DNA of 11,771 nt from a bacterium. Lineage in GTDB: Bacteria; ARS69. A program made the position numbers and the translations under genes. The stretch is from assembly GCA_025774865.1 (NCBI GenBank), contig JALGZO010000174.1:1-11771 (forward strand), in the 5' to 3' direction. Shown one piece after another: positions 2,564 through 10,127 of this stretch (position 1 is the first letter of the stretch; each line of letters starts with the position of its first letter). A model generated the notes under the pieces. It did no database searches. It was given only the letters and a program-made list of their open reading frames with translations, and was not told the DNA's origin.

Positions 2564-3656
2564 AGGCGCGGGAGAGCGGGCGACGAAGAAACTCAACGGC
2601 GGCCCGGGGGGCGCCTTCCGGAAGATCGCGGGCGACGCTAATCGAGCCCAAACCGAGTGTCAACTGGTAGCGATCTTCTCCACCGTGGCGCTTCTTGTCC
2701 AGGTGCGTGCGCGCCACGACCGCGTCGGGGTCCAATTCCGAGTCATGGGTCGGGAGTCCGAGCGCTTCCAGGAGCCGGATGAGACGATGGAGCAACGCTT
2801 CCTCGCAGCGGCCGGTTTCGACGGAGAGTTGGACGGCCGCCACCATCCCGAGCGCCACCGCCTCGCCGTGCCGGTAGCGTCCCGCGGCTTCCGTCTCGAT
2901 CGCGTGGCCCAACGTGTGTCCGAAATTGAGCTGCGCCCGGGCGCCGCCCTCCCGTTCGTCCTCCGAAACGATGCGCGCCTTCACAGCCACACACCGGCGG
3001 ACGATCTCGGCGACGGCGGGGTGATCGGGGTCGCCGGGCGGGTCGGATTCGAGTCGCCCGATCAGTTCCGGGTCCCCGATCCAGGCTGTCTTCACGACCT
3101 CGGCGAGGCCGGCGCGGAATTCCCGGAGGGGCAGCGTTGCGAGAAAAGCGGGATCGCAGCCGACGGCCATCGGCTGATGAAATGCGCCCACGAGATTCTT
3201 CCCCTCCGGTAGATCCACACCAGTCTTCCCTCCGACGGCCGCATCGACCTGGCCGAGCAGGGACGTCGGCAGCGCGACCCATCGCACGCCCCGCAGCAGC
3301 ACCGCCGCGACGAAACCCGCCGCGTCGGTCGCCGCGCCGCCGCCGAGCCCCACGACGATGTCGCCGCGCTCGAAGCCCCGCCCGATCACGTGCCGACACG
3401 CCTCCTCGACCGCGGCCAGGGACTTCGCGCCTTCTCCGGTCGGGAGCGGCACGAGTCGCACGTCGGCACCGCCGTCGCGAAGTCGGTCTTGCACGTCGTC
3501 GCCGTGGAGCTCGGCCACCGCCTCGTCGGCGAGCACGGCGACGCGTTCCGCGGCCTTGCCGGTCATATGGGTTACGGCATCGGCTGCGCCCGGCCCAACG
3601 ATAACGTCGTAGCCCCGTTCGCCGAGCTCGACCCGGATTCGATCGGGCTGGTTCAA
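2562..3656 (-). CDS. aroB: 3-dehydroquinate synthase
   Basis: 364 residues from the TTG at 3656, matching the usual 350-365. It converts DAHP to 3-dehydroquinate using NAD and a divalent metal (shikimate pathway, cytoplasm). Visible signatures are LPTGEGAKSL (NAD/substrate loop, about 71-80), GGGAATDAAGF (105-115), RGVRWVALPTSLLGQVDAAV, and GGKTGVDLPEGKNLVGAFHQP. Metal ligands are Glu186 (FRAGLAEVVK), His247 (LNFGHTLGHAIE) and His263 (HGEAVALGM); Lys189 is kept. Small departures from the common pattern are Thr110 where Gly is usual before the Asp, and Thr190 where Tyr or His follows the Lys. The TTG overlaps the stop of the lipoprotein gene (TTGA) and places the first homologous residues 5-7 from the N-terminus. 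An ATG at 3692 would add 12 residues and cannot be excluded. Confidence 0.95.
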   Translation of the reverse strand: MNQPDRIRVELGERGYDVIVGPGAADAVTHMTGKAAERVAVLADEAVAELHGDDVQDRLRDGGADVRLVPLPTGEGAKSLAAVEEACRHVIGRGFERGDIVVGLGGGAATDAAGFVAAVLLRGVRWVALPTSLLGQVDAAVGGKTGVDLPEGKNLVGAFHQPMAVGCDPAFLATLPLREFRAGLAEVVKTAWIGDPELIGRLESDPPGDPDHPAVAEIVRRCVAVKARIVSEDEREGGARAQLNFGHTLGHAIETEAAGRYRHGEAVALGMVAAVQLSVETGRCEEALLHRLIRLLEALGLPTHDSELDPDAVVARTHLDKKRHGGEDRYQLTLGLGSISVARDLPEGAPRAAVEFLRRPLSRA

Positions 3657-4669
3657 GACGGCCGCCCCCGCCGCCCGGTGGCCGGCACGCATCCGCACCG
3701 GAACGTGCGCGCGACCGCCTCGAGCGTGCGCATCAACGGTCGCTTGGGTCGATCGGGCGCGTAGACACACACGTCGACGAGGTACGTGCGATTGTCGTGG
3801 GGGCAGTGGAACGCCCAGCTGCGGAAGGGCCCCCCGATGACGTACTCCGCGTTCTCCCAGAGGCCCGAGAGGAGAACGCCGTCGAGATCGTACGGCGTCG
3901 GGCCGACGCTCCCCTCCGATCTCGCCGCCACGACCGTGTCGCCGTCGTAGTAGCGCTGGACGAGCTCGTCACGACGGGCGAGCCACTCCTCCACCGTGCG
4001 CTGGACCCGGCCGGGCTCCCAAGCGACGAAGAGCTGCTCGACCGGCGAGTCTCTCCACACCCGGACGAATCGCTCCCTCGCGTAGCGCTGATCGACGACC
4101 CAGTTGGGAGGGACCCGCACGCCCCAACCCCACGCGGCTAGCATGTCGTCACGGGCGCCGGGCACCTCTCCGGCGCGGAAGAGATTCGTAAGCATGAGCG
4201 TCACGGCCGCTTCCTCGACGACCGCGAGCAGGTCGTCCGGGCGCTCGGCCAGGACCTCGCGGAGCGCTTCGACCGTGCCCGAGAGAACGAAGAGGATCTG
4301 TCCGGCGGAGAAAGGCTCGGTCACGATCCAGAGACCGGGGAACTGGCTCCGCGTTTGCGTCCCCGTTGCGCCCCGGAGAAACTTCGCGAGATCCGCGTCC
4401 TCGGGAGTCCCCACCGCGAACAGGAGCTTGCGGGTCTTGTAGAACGAGTGATCCGCGAGGTCCGCTTCGACCGTGTCGAACGTGGGCTCGAAGTGCACGA
4501 CCCGAACCTCACGCGAAAGGATTTCGAGGACCTGCCCGCGGATCGGGCGCAACCCGGGCGACGACATCACGACGATCTCGGAACCCGGACCCACGGCGGG
4601 GATGCGCTTGCCTTGGCCGCAACCCCCGAGCGTGGCGATCGCGGCGGCGAGCGCGATGGTCCGGAACAT
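3653..4669 (-). CDS. DUF4837-type lipoprotein
   Basis: 338 residues. The start MFRTIALAAAIATLGGC is a lipoprotein signal peptide with lipobox L14-G-G-C17, so the mature protein is probably anchored to the outer (or inner) membrane facing the periplasm. The rest matches what I recall of DUF4837. It opens with GPGSEIVVM and has a PxFD-type block (FEPTFDTVEADLADHSFYKTRKLLF). Later come RVPPNWVVD, TVEEWLARRDELVQRY, LSGLWENAEYVIGGPFRSWA and VCVYAPDRPKRPLMR near the C-terminus. The family has no established biochemical function. The start at 4669 is chosen over an in-frame codon at 4717 because GGAGGA lies five bases upstream and the signal peptide begins there. It lies 82 bases after the HtrA-like gene and overlaps aroB, so it bridges the stress cassette and the shikimate block. 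Confidence 0.88.
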   Translation of the reverse strand: MFRTIALAAAIATLGGCGQGKRIPAVGPGSEIVVMSSPGLRPIRGQVLEILSREVRVVHFEPTFDTVEADLADHSFYKTRKLLFAVGTPEDADLAKFLRGATGTQTRSQFPGLWIVTEPFSAGQILFVLSGTVEALREVLAERPDDLLAVVEEAAVTLMLTNLFRAGEVPGARDDMLAAWGWGVRVPPNWVVDQRYARERFVRVWRDSPVEQLFVAWEPGRVQRTVEEWLARRDELVQRYYDGDTVVAARSEGSVGPTPYDLDGVLLSGLWENAEYVIGGPFRSWAFHCPHDNRTYLVDVCVYAPDRPKRPLMRTLEAVARTFRCGCVPATGRRGRPS

Positions 4670-4674
4670 GGGCT

Positions 4675-4680
4675 TCCTCC
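4675..4680 (-). promoter_or_regulatory. Ribosome binding site of the DUF4837 lipoprotein
   Basis: GGAGGA on the minus strand, five bases before the ATG at 4669. It decides the start and puts the lipobox cysteine at residue 17. Confidence 0.7.
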
Positions 4681-4687
4681 CACCGCC

Positions 4688-4711
4688 GACCATCGCCCGA
4701 CGCGCCGTTCC
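4688..4711 (-). promoter_or_regulatory. Weak candidate ECF-type promoter before the lipoprotein gene
   Basis: Minus strand GGAAC (4711-4707), 16 bases, then GTC (4690-4688), the general shape of ECF sigma promoters. The second element is only 18 bases before the start codon, so the leader would be very short and overlap the ribosome binding site. Chance occurrence in GC-rich DNA is likely. Confidence 0.2.
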
Positions 4712-4751
4712 TCGCAAGGCCGTAGAGGGGTGGAGGCCGAGCTTCGCGAAA

Positions 4752-5930
4752 CTAGCGCCGAGTGTCCTGCACTACGGGAATCGGAGGGAGCGGATTGGCG
4801 CCGATCGGCGGAACGCGCCGGAGCCGGCGCGGACCGGGCGGTGCGACGGCCTCTCCGATCTCGACCGTCGCGAGGACGTCGACGCCCTCTCGCCGGTACT
4901 CGATGTCGACGTGCGCGCGCGGCCACGTGCCGGCGACGAGCGCGCAGAGCTGGCGGGCGTTGGCCACGACCTGCTCTCGGTACACCGTGATCACGTCACC
5001 GGGCCGGATTCCGGCGCCCTGCGCGGGGCTGTCGGGGAGCACCGACAAGATGCGCGCTCCGATGTCTCCCTCGGGTGCGCCGCTCATTTCGACGCCGAGA
5101 AACCCGCGACGCACGTGACCGTGGCGAACGAGATCGTGCCAAGCCCGCCGGGCCGTGCCGGCCGGGATGGCGAGGCCTTCGGCGGCGGCGGGCTCCGTCG
5201 GGCGGCCCTCGAGATCGATCTCGCCGATCGAACCCTCGCGGATGGCGGGTCCCGACTGACAGGCGGCGGTGACGATCCCCAGGAAGCGTCCCTCCGTATC
5301 CACCACCGGCCCTCCGGAATCACCCGGATAGATCGGAGCCGCGACGCGTCGTACCTGCACCGGCATTCCCTCGGGATCGATCACCAGCATCCCTTCGAAT
5401 GTCCCGAGCGACGCGGAGAGCGAACCCCCGTACGCGTTGCCCAGCAAGAGACACGTAGTCCCCCTCGGGGGGCTCTCGACCAATTCGGGTGCGGGAAGGC
5501 CTTCGGTCTCCGGGAGCGCGCGGAACGTCTCGAGGACGGCCAGGTCGAGGTAACGGTCCTTGCCCACGATGCGCGCGAGGACGTGCCGACCGGCCTGATC
5601 GAAGATCTCGACCTCCCGGCTCTCCCCGACCACCGATGCCGTCGTGAGGAGGAACCGCTGTTCTCCCATGTAGATCGCGCAGCCGACTCGCCGCTTTCGG
5701 AACAGGACCTTGGGATCCTCCATCACGCGATCGACGGGAACTCGGGCGGGACCCGCGTCGGCGACGACGACGAAGACCCGATTCTTCCAGCGCTCCGCGA
5801 CTCGCGCGAGACTCTCCTCGAATGAATCCGTTTCGGCGTGGGTCTCGCCCGCCGGGGCCGGCGGCACGCAGAGCAATACCGGGCCTCCCAGCAGGAGGAT
5901 GGTGCGGAGGATGGTTGGCGCGCGCATCAT
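4752..5930 (-). CDS. HtrA/DegP-like trypsin-fold PDZ protein lacking the catalytic histidine
   Basis: 392 residues. A signal peptide (1-27, ending PPAPA) points to the periplasm. Residues about 50-270 are an HtrA-type protease fold and 275-360 a single PDZ domain (RRGFLGVEM, then SVLPDSPAQGAGIRPGDVITV). The triad aspartate (Asp129, DLAVL) and nucleophile (Ser205, YPGDSGGPVV) are present. The histidine position, normally LTNAHVV, reads LLTTASVV: Ser99 replaces His (codon TCG at 5636-5634). The usual GSG before it reads VGC. The protein is therefore probably inactive or altered as a protease. The C-terminal 30 residues are Pro/Arg-rich. The start overlaps the anti-sigma stop as TGATG; a second ATG follows directly. 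Its place after sigma/anti-sigma genes resembles mucD in the algT-mucA-mucD operon. Likely roles are PDZ-based sensing, chaperoning or a decoy; these are inference. Confidence 0.92.
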   Translation of the reverse strand: MMRAPTILRTILLLGGPVLLCVPPAPAGETHAETDSFEESLARVAERWKNRVFVVVADAGPARVPVDRVMEDPKVLFRKRRVGCAIYMGEQRFLLTTASVVGESREVEIFDQAGRHVLARIVGKDRYLDLAVLETFRALPETEGLPAPELVESPPRGTTCLLLGNAYGGSLSASLGTFEGMLVIDPEGMPVQVRRVAAPIYPGDSGGPVVDTEGRFLGIVTAACQSGPAIREGSIGEIDLEGRPTEPAAAEGLAIPAGTARRAWHDLVRHGHVRRGFLGVEMSGAPEGDIGARILSVLPDSPAQGAGIRPGDVITVYREQVVANARQLCALVAGTWPRAHVDIEYRREGVDVLATVEIGEAVAPPGPRRLRRVPPIGANPLPPIPVVQDTRR

Positions 5931-6649
5931 CAGAATGAGATGACCGTGACTTCCGGCTCGCCCGCCGATACGGGCGTTGAGCTCACGCTGCGCCCCACGC
6001 TCGACGGCGTATGCACCCGCCGCAGCGGGTAACTGTATTTGGAACGACGGAAGCGATCGGTGTCACCCTCCAGTCTCAGTTCCCGGGCACTCTCGAGGAA
6101 CACTTCGACCGCCTCGGGCATCCCCGCGAACACCTCGTTCGGACTGGAGTCGCGAAGACCGGCCGGCGACTCCTCACCCCGCGCAGGCACCACCGGTGCC
6201 TCTTCGGCCGCGGCGAGCAGCCCCGTCTCCGTGGCGGGAGGCTCGGCCCCCACCAGCGTCTCCACGGACCCCGTTTCCTGCACCGGCTCCGACGCGATCG
6301 CCACCATCAAGAGCACGGCCGCCGCCACCCCGACCGGGCTCCACCTCACCACACCGGGGAAGGCCCCGATCCGGCTCCAGTACTCGGCCGCTCGCATCCG
6401 GATGAGCGCTCGCACGCTGCGCGGAGTCGACACTTCCCGAATACGTCGCCAGACCTCTTCGTCGAAGTCGTCGGTCACTTCCACCGCGGGGAGCTCGCTC
6501 AGAATCGTCAGTGACTCTTTCATCTCGTCGTAGAACACGCGGCACGGAGGGCAACCCTCGAGGTGACGCTGGAACGCCTCCCGGACACTGCCCATCAGGA
6601 CTCCGTCCAGCGCGTCAGAAACGAGCTCCTGGACCCGATCACACTTCAA
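5930..6649 (-). CDS. Membrane-anchored zinc-finger anti-sigma factor
   Basis: 239 residues. The N-terminus has the anti-sigma zinc-finger (ZAS / zf-HC2) pattern: Cys3, then His29-x3-Cys33-x2-Cys36 (HLEGCPPC). It would hold the ECF sigma factor encoded just upstream at the inner membrane. One hydrophobic segment (about 103-119, WSPVGVAAAVLLMVAIA) places the first 100 residues in the cytoplasm and about 120 residues outside. The outer part is a Glu/Ala/Pro-rich stretch (121-165), then a predicted helix (PEAVEVFLESARELRLEG) and a Ser/Thr-rich tail that I do not recognise. The start is TTG at 6649, overlapping the sigma stop (TTGA), with AGGGGG about ten bases upstream. It would put Cys3 right at the N-terminus, as expected for the family. 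Release presumably occurs by regulated proteolysis; no site-2 protease is in this window. Confidence 0.92.
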   Translation of the reverse strand: MKCDRVQELVSDALDGVLMGSVREAFQRHLEGCPPCRVFYDEMKESLTILSELPAVEVTDDFDEEVWRRIREVSTPRSVRALIRMRAAEYWSRIGAFPGVVRWSPVGVAAAVLLMVAIASEPVQETGSVETLVGAEPPATETGLLAAAEEAPVVPARGEESPAGLRDSSPNEVFAGMPEAVEVFLESARELRLEGDTDRFRRSKYSYPLRRVHTPSSVGRSVSSTPVSAGEPEVTVISF

Positions 6650-7374
6650 TTCGGTGATCCCCCTTCTTCATCCGGTGCGACCCGGGACGGCCGATCTCCC
6701 TGTCGGGAGGCTTTCCAGAAAATCGTGGGGTCGTTCTTCCGCGTCCCCAGCAGAAGCGGCTCGACCCGTCTCTTGAACTCCAGTCGCGCGCGATTGATCC
6801 GGGATTTGACCGTTCCGAGCGGCAACTCGAGCATCGAGGCGATCTCTTCGTACGTGAACCCTTCCAGATCCCGCAGGACGATCATCATCCGGAAATGCTC
6901 GGGCAACGAATCGATCGCGATGCGGACTTTCCTCTGCCGGTCGTTGAGATCCGAGATGCGATCGGGAGCGAGGAAGTCCTCGCGGGTACCGAAGTGGTAG
7001 TCGTCTTGACGGAGCTCTCGCGGCGAGTCCTCCATCGAGACGTTGCGCCGGCGGGCTCTGTTCCTGAGCTCGTTCTTCCCGAGGTTGGAAGCGATCGTGT
7101 AGAGCCAGGTCGTGAAGCGCGCGGTCACCCGGTAGGTTCCGGCGTGGCGATAGACCCGGAGAAAGACCTCTTGGGCGAGATCCTCGGCCCGGTCACGGTC
7201 GCCGATCAGCCGGTTCACGTAGTTCACGATCGGCCCGCGATGCCGCCGCATCAGCTCGGCGAAGGCGCCTTCGTCGCCGGTCTTGAGGGCCAGCATCAGA
7301 TCTTCGTCGGGACGTTCGTCACGCATGCGAAAGACGCTCTCGGGATCGAGTCGGGCCGCCTGAATCGGACGCAT
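6646..7374 (-). CDS. RNA polymerase ECF sigma factor (SigE/RpoE-like)
   Basis: 242 residues from the ATG at 7374. Region 2 is clear: DEGAFAELMRRH, then DRAEDLAQEVFLRVYRHA (core binding), then ARFTTWLYTIASNLGKNELR (-10 recognition). A 40-residue charged linker follows. Region 4 is IDSLPEHFRMMIVLRDLEGF then TYEEIASMLELPLGTVKSRI with NRARLEFKRRV, the helix-turn-helix for the -35 element. It is an RpoE-like ECF type without extra C-terminal domains, only a 35-residue basic/Pro tail. An in-frame GTG at 7380 abuts the Shine-Dalgarno site directly, so the ATG six bases after AGGAGG is preferred. It overlaps the anti-sigma gene and heads the cassette. A GGAACTT element upstream suggests it activates its own promoter. 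Confidence 0.96.
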   Translation of the reverse strand: MRPIQAARLDPESVFRMRDERPDEDLMLALKTGDEGAFAELMRRHRGPIVNYVNRLIGDRDRAEDLAQEVFLRVYRHAGTYRVTARFTTWLYTIASNLGKNELRNRARRRNVSMEDSPRELRQDDYHFGTREDFLAPDRISDLNDRQRKVRIAIDSLPEHFRMMIVLRDLEGFTYEEIASMLELPLGTVKSRINRARLEFKRRVEPLLLGTRKNDPTIFWKASRQGDRPSRVAPDEEGGSPN

Positions 7375-7380
7375 GGACAC

Positions 7381-7477: not shown

Positions 7478-9169
7478 TCAATCCCCCCGGAGTTTCGACG
7501 GAGGCCCCTCCGCCTCCGGATCGAGCTCGGCTGACCGCCGCCAGGCTTCGCGTGCCTCGCGCTCGAGCCCGAGGACGTTCAGCACGTCTCCGTAGTGGTC
7601 CAGGATGACGGCGTCACGGGGCACCTCCGCCACCGCCTTCTCGAGATACTCTCGGGCCTGCGGGTACTTCCCACTCTTGAAGAACGCCCACCCCAGGCTG
7701 TCCAGGAAGTATCCGTTCTCGGGCTCGAGCTCGACCGCGCGGTGCAGCACCCTCAACGCTTCGTCGAGGTGAATTCCCTTTTCGGCGAACATGTACCCGA
7801 GGTAGTTCAGCGCTTCCCCGTTCTCCGGCTCCAGGGCGACCACGGTCCGGAACTGCTCCGCAGCCTCCGGAGTGCGATCCAGTCGATCCAGCGCCACGCC
7901 GAGGCCGTAGTGAGCGTTCGCATTCCCGGCCCTGAGCTCGAGCGACCGCTCGAACGCGTCGACCGCCTTGTCGTGCTGCTCGAGCTGATTGTGGCAGACG
8001 CCCATATAGAAGTGCAGGCTCGCGTCCTGCGGTGCCCGCGATGCCGCCTCTCGGAACGCCTCGATCGCGCTGGCGGGCTGGCCGGTCTGCACGCGGAGGT
8101 ATCCGAGCGAGATCCAGCCGTCGGTGAACTCCGGATCGATTTCGACGGCCTCCTCGAATTGCTCGGTCGCCTTCCCGAGCTGTTCGGCCTCCCAGTAGAG
8201 CCGCCCCAGGTGCTTGCGAACCGTGACCCGGTCGGGCGCGCGCCGGCGAACTTCCAGGAGCTCCCGGGTCGCACCTTCGACATCACCTGAGCGAAGCAGC
8301 AAAAGCCCGTACTGCTCACGCACTTCCAGATCTTGAGGGTAGTTCTCGATGATCCACTCCGCGACATCCTTCGCCCCCGAGACGTCGTCCAGCAGGAGGT
8401 TCACGCGCAGGAGGCGCCGGCGGACCTGCAGGCTCCGCGGATCCAGCTCGAGCGCGCGCTCGTAGAGTTCCGCGGCCTCTTTCAGATCCATGCTCGCTTC
8501 CCGGACGGCCGCCGCGCTGATGAGCGCATCCACGAAGTCGGGGGCAATCTCGAGGACCGTCGAGTAGGCCTCGAGCGCATCGTCGAAACGCCCGAGCCGG
8601 CCGAGTAAGGAGCCGAGCCGGAAGTGGACGTGCGCGAGCCCGGGCCGGATCTGCGCCGCCGCCGTCAGGTGTTCCACCGCGCCCTCGAGATCCCCGTCCC
8701 GCTCGAGCGCCTCGGCCAAACGGACGCGGGCATCCAACTCCCTCGGACGGAGCTCGACGATCTTTTGCAGCTCCGTCGCCGCCGCGCGGTAGTTCCTCTC
8801 GCCGAGGTAGAGCTGCACCATGACCTCGAGCGCATCGACGTTGTCGGGATCTGTCTGCAGCGCCCGTCCCGCGGCTGCACGGGCCTCCTCCGCCTCTTGG
8901 AGCCGGAGATGGACGCGGGCGAGGCTCCCGTTCACCTCCGCCGAGTTCGGCGATTCCAGAAGCGCCAGTCTGTACTCGTGGATCGCTTCGCGCAGTCGAT
9001 CCCGGGCCTCGAAGAACGTCCCGAGCGAGTAGTGTTCGAGGGCCTGGAACGAGACCCCCTCGTCGGGAGCCTCGGTCGGAGGCTCCGCCCCGACGACGCG
9101 CTCCCCCTTCCCCGCGACTCCGACCAGCCCGACCAGGAGTACCGCGATGATTCGAGTCTTCTCACGCAT
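7478..9169 (-). CDS. Secreted protein of about 15 TPR repeats
   Basis: 563 residues from the ATG at 9169. The N-terminus (MREKTRIIAVLLVGLVGVAG and on) is a signal peptide with likely cleavage after VVGA near residue 28; there is no lipobox cysteine. From about residue 43 to 555 it is an unbroken array of about fifteen 34-residue TPR units with consensus ends such as ALELDPRS, AVEIDPEF, VVALEPEN and AELDPEA. The thirteenth unit is 35 residues. The last units (LNYLGYMFAEKG, FLDSLGWAFFKSGKY, DHYGDVLNVLG) resemble the C-terminal block of large periplasmic or outer-membrane-associated TPR proteins. An in-frame start at 9397 would cover 228 bases of dppC and is rejected. The chosen start overlaps the dppC end by 8 bases, with GGAAAGGAG about 12 bases upstream. 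It is probably a periplasmic scaffold; partners are unknown. Confidence 0.92.
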   Translation of the reverse strand: MREKTRIIAVLLVGLVGVAGKGERVVGAEPPTEAPDEGVSFQALEHYSLGTFFEARDRLREAIHEYRLALLESPNSAEVNGSLARVHLRLQEAEEARAAAGRALQTDPDNVDALEVMVQLYLGERNYRAAATELQKIVELRPRELDARVRLAEALERDGDLEGAVEHLTAAAQIRPGLAHVHFRLGSLLGRLGRFDDALEAYSTVLEIAPDFVDALISAAAVREASMDLKEAAELYERALELDPRSLQVRRRLLRVNLLLDDVSGAKDVAEWIIENYPQDLEVREQYGLLLLRSGDVEGATRELLEVRRRAPDRVTVRKHLGRLYWEAEQLGKATEQFEEAVEIDPEFTDGWISLGYLRVQTGQPASAIEAFREAASRAPQDASLHFYMGVCHNQLEQHDKAVDAFERSLELRAGNANAHYGLGVALDRLDRTPEAAEQFRTVVALEPENGEALNYLGYMFAEKGIHLDEALRVLHRAVELEPENGYFLDSLGWAFFKSGKYPQAREYLEKAVAEVPRDAVILDHYGDVLNVLGLEREAREAWRRSAELDPEAEGPPSKLRGD

Positions 9170-10127
9170 GACGCTTGCGGACTCCTTTCCAGGATGACCG
9201 ACCGGCGTCTGCCCGGAAGGTCGAAGCGAGCCGAGGATCGAGGGCGTCCCGCAGGCCGTCCCCCACGAGGTTGAACCCGAGCACCGTGAGAAGGATCGCC
9301 GTCCCCGGCGCGGCCAGGATCCACGGTGCATGAATGACGTACTCCCGCCCGTGACCGAGCATTGCTCCCCACTCCGGGAGTGGCGGCTGGGCGCCAAGCC
9401 CGAGGAAGGACAGCCCGGCCGCGTCCAGAATCGCGGTGGCCAGCCCCAGGCTCGCCTGCACCAGCAGCGGTGCCAAGCAGTGCGGAAGGACCGTCCGGAC
9501 GAGAATGCGTGCGTCCCGGGAGCCGATTGCTCGTTCCGACTCCACGAACGGGAGCGATCGGACGGTCAGCACCTGCGCACGAACCAGACGAGCGTACACT
9601 GGCACGCTGACGATTCCGACCGCGATCATGGCGTTCGTCAGGCTCGGTCCGAGCACCGCCACGACGACCACCGCGAGAAGAACACTGGGAAACGCCAGCA
9701 TCACGTCCACCACCCGCATGCCCAGGAGATCGATCCATCCTCCGAAGTACCCGGTGACCAGCCCCAGCGACCCGCCGACCGCGATCCCGATCCCGACCGA
9801 AACGATTCCCACGAGGAGCGAGAGCCTCGTTCCGTGCAGCAGCCGCGAAGCCACGTCCCGGCCGAACTCGTCGGTGCCGAGCAGGTGTCCCGTCCCCGGC
9901 GGCGTCAGCCGCCGCGTCAGGTCCTGCTCGAGCGGGTCCATCGGGGCGACCGCCGGGCCGACCAATGCCCCGGCCAAGAAGAGGCCGAGAATTCCCAGGC
10001 CGAACCGCGCGGTGCGTCGCTGCCACACCCGGGCGAGCACGCGGCGAGTCCGGTCGGGAGCGACGCTTCCCGTCCCTGGAATCGTCTCCCGATCAGCTGA
10101 GCTTGATTCGGGGGTCGAGAACCGCAT
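9162..10127 (-). CDS. dppC: Peptide ABC transporter permease, DppC/OppC type
   Basis: 321 residues. An inner-membrane permease subunit of a peptide importer (BPD_transp_1 fold). It has a 40-residue cytoplasmic N-terminus, a first membrane helix (GLGILGLFLAGALVGPAVAP), and the DppC-type marker GTGHLLGTDEFGRDVASRLL. Several membrane helices follow, then the EAA loop (ESERAIGSRDARILVRTVLP) that docks the ATPase. LSFLGLGAQPPLPEWGAML and NLVGDGLRDALDPRL are standard for the C-terminal part. The EAA region is somewhat divergent (RTVLPH for RHxLPN). The ATG at 10127 overlaps the dppB end by 35 bases and has only a weak ribosome binding site, so the exact start is less sure. No ATPase gene (dppD/dppF) follows; a TPR gene does. 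Confidence 0.95.
   Translation of the reverse strand: MRFSTPESSSADRETIPGTGSVAPDRTRRVLARVWQRRTARFGLGILGLFLAGALVGPAVAPMDPLEQDLTRRLTPPGTGHLLGTDEFGRDVASRLLHGTRLSLLVGIVSVGIGIAVGGSLGLVTGYFGGWIDLLGMRVVDVMLAFPSVLLAVVVVAVLGPSLTNAMIAVGIVSVPVYARLVRAQVLTVRSLPFVESERAIGSRDARILVRTVLPHCLAPLLVQASLGLATAILDAAGLSFLGLGAQPPLPEWGAMLGHGREYVIHAPWILAAPGTAILLTVLGFNLVGDGLRDALDPRLASTFRADAGRSSWKGVRKRHA

Follow-up and report, generated by a model that had tools for sequence, protein, structure and literature searches.

Why should an HtrA-type protein that has lost its catalytic histidine be encoded directly after an ECF sigma factor and its anti-sigma factor? The question is raised by the window analysed here, i.e., the whole stretch of 11,771 nucleotides (contig JALGZO010000174.1, GTDB lineage ARS69), in which the reverse strand carries, in order of transcription, the genes for an ECF sigma factor, a zf-HC2 anti-sigma factor, the HtrA-like protein (hereafter pseudo-HtrA), a DUF4837 protein and, fifth, a product that we take from its translation to be AroB; the genes abut or overlap. 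The relevant features are as follows:

6646-7380, reverse strand: ECF sigma factor (Sigma70_r2 and r4_2 by Pfam; TIGR02937 at 93.2 bits, cut-off 42.9).
5930-6649, reverse strand: zf-HC2 membrane anti-sigma factor (PF13490, 41.8 bits); its stop codon overlaps the start of the pseudo-HtrA gene (TTCTGATGATG).
5933-5944, reverse strand: last four codons of the anti-sigma gene, V-I-S-F-COOH, a proposed PDZ ligand ([VI][IL][SA]F in five of five orthologues).
4752-5930, reverse strand: pseudo-HtrA, an open frame of 392 amino acids with a signal-peptide-like N terminus, a Trypsin_2 domain without the catalytic histidine and a single PDZ domain.
5634-5636, reverse strand: Ser99 at the catalytic histidine position, codon TCG (phmmer and alignment).
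5544-5546, reverse strand: Asp129 at the catalytic aspartate position, in YLDLAVL (alignment; coordinate calculated from the start of the frame).
5316-5318, reverse strand: Ser205 in PGDSGGP, replaced by Met in the G003 orthologue (alignment; coordinate calculated from the start of the frame).
5091-5108, reverse strand: predicted carboxylate-binding loop of the PDZ domain, RGFLGV, residues 275-280 (loop columns conserved in 67 pseudo-HtrAs).
3653-4717, reverse strand: DUF4837 putative lipoprotein, the fourth gene (PF16125, 72.4 bits).

The product of the first gene contains sigma-70 regions 2 and 4 in addition to its TIGR02937 match, as is characteristic of ECF sigma factors, and the second has the N-terminal HxxxCxxC zinc motif and the one membrane segment of a zf-HC2 anti-sigma factor (L182; Kyte-Doolittle mean of 2.0 over 19 residues). 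Upstream of the sigma gene lies a large TPR-repeat protein (7478-9397, reverse strand); its listed start falls within the frame of an ABC-transporter permease (9162-10127), so that translation probably begins at a later point of the listed frame. The first-pass annotation of this DNA dealt with the HtrA-like protein itself; the operon, the multi-phylum clade and the anti-sigma tail described below escaped it, and these carry most of the interest of the locus.

The pseudo-HtrA has the domain order of the HtrA/S1C family, a chymotrypsin fold (Trypsin_2, 60.1 bits) followed by PDZ (PDZ_2, 35.2 bits), with both Pfam matches above cut-off, and it lacks the His-Asp-Ser triad of that family: serine takes the place of histidine in five of five members of its own family, and histidine is absent from all 67 members of the wider clade. 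Its AlphaFold2 model (pLDDT 80.8, pTM 0.76) aligns well with HtrA structures (VIA-align; Z of 31.9 to Rv0983 and about 31 to DegP/DegQ) and places a short helix, residues 98-101, where the histidine would be expected. The protein scores far below the cut-off of the DegS equivalog TIGR02038 (83.7 bits against 422.95) and is likewise far under the cut-off of the DegP family; it gives no match to the NCBIfam model of MamO at E <= 0.001, and the distant clade members stay far under the cut-off of 800 of that model. Ser99 falls exactly in the histidine column both in a phmmer comparison with AlgW and when the protein is aligned with triad-bearing HtrAs from other genomes; it lies within residues 95-103 (LTTASVVGE, positions 5622-5648), the segment to which the first-pass annotation had drawn attention. 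The TCG codon differs from CAC and CAT at all three positions, and hence a single base error cannot account for the serine. The first-pass annotation had further taken Asp129, Ser205 (in GDSGG) and the PDZ domain to be intact, which the alignment and the PDZ_2 match confirm, and it had named histidine in the close homologues as the observation that would speak against its reading; these homologues carry serine in five of five cases and histidine in none.

Within the phylum of the window, the sample comprised five genomes from five different genera, with one orthologue per genome. All five genera have serine at the histidine position, and the order of sigma, anti-sigma, pseudo-HtrA and DUF4837 genes is kept in every one of them; the four other orthologues share 38-47% of their residues with the window protein. 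In the G003 orthologue the catalytic serine is lost as well, with methionine in its place (GDMGG). When a collection of genome contigs was scanned with the pseudo-HtrA protein, a single locus was returned, in DHS20C21, a genome of the same phylum. Two cysteines, Cys84 and Cys160, are invariant among the five aligned orthologues. A redox switch formed by this pair was considered and rejected: Cys84 is not common to most of the wider clade, and AlgW also has a cysteine at the position of Cys160.

A profile of the five orthologues was then used as query, and its best matches beyond the phylum were mostly other HtrAs without the histidine. In ten of these with wider flanks, a zf-HC2 anti-sigma gene lay directly upstream, preceded by an ECF sigma gene where the contig reached that far. 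The set was widened by searches inside the phyla of the matched genomes, each with a separate genome set: G000 (5 genomes), G198 (47), G140 (4), G320/G043 (84), G062 (1), G275/G138 (8) and G080 (8). By these sets the clade is present in at least seven GTDB phyla and in 14 families. The set used for counting contains 67 His-less HtrAs, with two PDZ-only matches (L006, L007) left out. In a tree, all 67 proteins fall on one side of a single branch (SH-aLRT 100); when the active-site columns are removed, two changes are needed instead of one, so that a single origin of the clade is likely, short of proof. The histidine column is occupied by Ser (32), Phe (21), Gly (4), Thr (4), Ala (3), Asp (2) and Asn, the aspartate column by Asp (41) or Asn (26), and serine is kept in 56 of the 67 catalytic serine positions, the rest being Ile, Thr, Asn, Val, Ala or Met. 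The PDZ loop [RH]G[WYF]LGV is as well conserved in the clade as in triad-bearing HtrAs, with Gly279 present in 67/67 and Val280 in 64/67. A drifting triad beside a preserved PDZ loop is the pattern expected if the peptide-binding part is under selection and the active site is not. Many pseudo-HtrAs of other phyla (L072, L073, L075, L076, L078, L043) end in a short coiled-coil-like stretch, e.g., LEKRIEQLEEEIRRLEKLFNKEE, which is missing in the phylum of the window.

The link between the loss of histidine and the operon is close to complete. A sigma gene, an anti-sigma gene or both lie directly upstream of all 65 pseudo-HtrAs with enough flanking sequence (both in 63; 2 of the 67 loci are too short), while none of the 51 triad-bearing HtrAs with enough flank (51 of 59) has either gene upstream. 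Fisher's test on the raw counts of 63/64 versus 0/51 gives p of about 3e-32, a value to be read with the reservation that kinship among the sequences inflates any p value. The pattern of the pseudo-HtrAs holds in every phylum sampled. There are two exceptions: the sigma gene of L053 is missing from the count, the locus ending before its expected place, and the anti-sigma gene of L009 is missing from the count, yet stands in place in the ORF list. The G080 phylum, searched afterwards, added three pseudo-HtrA loci with both genes and one with too little flank, together with three triad-bearing HtrAs that have neither a sigma nor an anti-sigma gene upstream. The HMMs that detected the two upstream genes were built from the window's own phylum; in distant members, Pfam matches confirmed both domains, anti-sigma and HtrA. 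Additionally, in 18 loci from at least four phyla the gene immediately following the pseudo-HtrA encodes a DUF4837 protein, and no triad-bearing HtrA is followed by one; no mention of the DUF4837 family was found in the literature searched.

The anti-sigma factors share a further property. Those of the five genomes of the window's phylum carry Y-x-YPLRR, followed at a variable distance by the terminal residues [VI][IL][SA]F. Of the 64 linked anti-sigma factors, 34 end in Phe, 27 in Leu and one each in Trp, Tyr and Pro, so that 63/64 have Phe, Leu, Trp or Tyr in last place; the one ending in Pro (TVTFSP) has Phe two residues before its end. As a control we used 23 other sigma-linked, membrane-spanning zf-HC2 proteins from the same genomes, collected by a zf-HC2 search; such an ending occurs in 2 of these 23, one of them from a doubtful frame. 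Moreover, a Y-[VI]-[LYF]-like motif is found in 61 of the 64 linked anti-sigma factors and stands exactly 17 residues from the end in 35, a spacing that recurs in several phyla. In the G080 phylum the ending is strict, YVLD[NQ][VI]PMRVxYERTIY. That the tail is kept merely through the overlap with the next start codon can be set aside, since in another phylum the two frames lie tens of base pairs apart and the tail is still conserved. HtrA-type PDZ domains are known to read hydrophobic C-terminal residues (YxF for DegS and WVF for AlgW; PMC8545111). Any single ligand rule is loose here, given that one phylum has a C-terminal Leu after Gly-Gly and others have Phe or Tyr. In the G320 phylum (L074, L041) almost every anti-sigma tail has GGL as its last three residues, and Phe is the usual residue at the histidine position (TTTF[DE]M); PDZ domain and anti-sigma tail may have changed together in this phylum.

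The loss of the triad, the retention of the PDZ domain with its carboxylate loop, the conservation of the operon, the clustering on the tree and the hydrophobic anti-sigma tail are established at the level of sequence; that the PDZ domain binds the tail, and in which direction control runs, is inferred. We consider that the pseudo-HtrA is probably a non-catalytic periplasmic partner of the anti-sigma factor, a co-regulator resembling DegS or RseB, whichever the sign of its action. The PDZ domain would hold the hydrophobic C terminus of the anti-sigma factor, and the degenerate protease cleft or an adjacent surface would accommodate the Y-[VI]-[LYF] strand that precedes it. Bound in this manner at rest, the anti-sigma factor would be protected by the pseudo-HtrA, much as RseA is by RseB. 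The exposed C termini of misfolded envelope proteins would compete with the tail for the PDZ domain, and the freed tail could be cut by a separate site-1 protease and next by an RseP-type site-2 protease, with release of the sigma factor. Site-2 proteases of the RseP type (M50) were found in 12 of 12 genomes tested, and triad-bearing HtrA paralogues that could act as site-1 protease are present in the genome. On a wider scale we offer, as a conjecture and with some doubt, that these operons may be ancient, sigma-E-like switches shared by many phyla, in which a pseudo-HtrA sensor binds the anti-sigma factor's own PDZ ligand at rest, this ligand being a C-terminal Leu or aromatic residue that often stands 17 residues beyond a Y-[VI]-[LYF] strand, and stress peptides compete for the PDZ domain; the roles of sensor and protector, divided in E. 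coli between DegS and RseB, would then be united in a single protein.

We favour shielding only slightly: a presenting or activating role comes close to it in likelihood, and a simple chaperone function is possible. Control of the opposite sign, in which the pseudo-HtrA attaches to the anti-sigma tail and brings it to a separate, true site-1 HtrA, or activates that protease in the way MamO acts with MamE, is conceivable, if somewhat unlikely by our estimate: the triad-bearing paralogues and the precedent of MamO (PMC4794232) speak for it, and conservation of the tail fits docking in either sense, while none of the surveyed loci has a triad-bearing HtrA gene next to the operon. We regard it as unlikely that the pseudo-HtrA is only a periplasmic chaperone that makes no contact with the anti-sigma factor and is a target of the sigma factor, like mucD or degP in sigma-E regulons. 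Sigma operons often hold their own target genes, and an HtrA with an inactivated site keeps chaperone activity, as established for DegP S210A; such a role nevertheless leaves unexplained why only His-less HtrAs occupy this place in the operon, and why the linked anti-sigma factors, unlike others, have in common a hydrophobic C-terminal residue.

That the protein is an active protease, with Ser and Asp in an atypical arrangement or with another histidine standing in, is very improbable. The window protein does keep Ser205 and Asp129, and His116 is found in four of five family members. This histidine, considered as a substitute and set aside, is missing from the G003 member, the one that has also lost Ser205, and from the rest of the clade; it lies on a strand 13 residues before Asp129, which by homology to chymotrypsin-fold proteases should be far from the active site. 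No histidine is invariant among the five aligned family members, no histidine column exceeds 48% in the clade, and the aspartate and serine positions drift as well, Asp often being replaced by Asn and Ser sometimes lost. The enzyme with an unusual dyad, which the first-pass annotation had offered as an alternative, thus finds no support, and its other reading, that of a pseudoprotease, gains from close homologues without the histidine and from the lack of a replacement common enough in the clade; with the serine position kept in 56/67 and the aspartate in 41/67, weak or unusual chemistry is possible for some clade members. Finally, a sequencing error, frameshift or decaying pseudogene, for which the fragmented, metagenome-like assembly (785 contigs, 8.3% contamination) could be invoked, is refuted by the orthologues in four independent assemblies from other genera, which have the same residue, intact frames and the same operon despite their divergence, leaving this explanation a negligible chance and bearing out the earlier view that a frameshift was unlikely.

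DegS-type HtrA sensors are the textbook case of signalling by a PDZ-regulated protease. If the non-catalytic partner proposed here is real, a widespread clade without catalysis yet tied to sigma/anti-sigma pairs would mean that the peptide-reading part alone can carry a signal. Our findings suggest a widespread, apparently undescribed way of envelope stress sensing, and they offer a way into the functions of uncultured phyla and of the DUF4837 lipoprotein family. In the literature covered, outside which lie most subscription journals and the large ECF reclassification, we found no dedicated His-less HtrA described as third gene of ECF operons across phyla; earlier notice of this gene neighbourhood in ECF classification work is possible.

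Both elements of the system have known counterparts. HtrA sensors of sigma/anti-sigma pairs have been described in DegS and AlgW (PMC8103513), and pseudo-HtrAs in MamO (PMC4794232). MamO and the inactive copies of MamE, the magnetosome pseudoproteases, resemble the window protein in being HtrA family members with a degenerate triad and non-catalytic work; MamO has Thr for the catalytic Ser, carries a transporter domain and acts in magnetite formation, with no sigma/anti-sigma linkage described (PMC4794232). With DegS and AlgW (RpoE-RseA of sigma-E and AlgU-MucA, respectively) the pseudo-HtrA shares the HtrA fold, one PDZ domain and the association with a membrane-bound anti-sigma factor and its ECF sigma factor; DegS binds C termini of outer-membrane proteins through its PDZ domain, and the carboxylate loop of that domain is kept in the pseudo-HtrAs. 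Unlike DegS and AlgW, the pseudo-HtrA lacks the catalytic histidine, its gene lies inside the sigma operon, and it is the anti-sigma factor itself that carries the conserved hydrophobic C terminus. RseB/MucB resembles it in the role proposed here, that of a periplasmic protein that acts on the anti-sigma factor without proteolysis, and in being encoded after the anti-sigma factor in the operon, but has a fold unrelated to that of HtrA with its PDZ domain. MucD is likewise an HtrA encoded in a sigma/anti-sigma operon, as the last gene of algU-mucABCD; MucD is an active DegP-type protease, whereas every HtrA found in the operon described here is devoid of the catalytic histidine.
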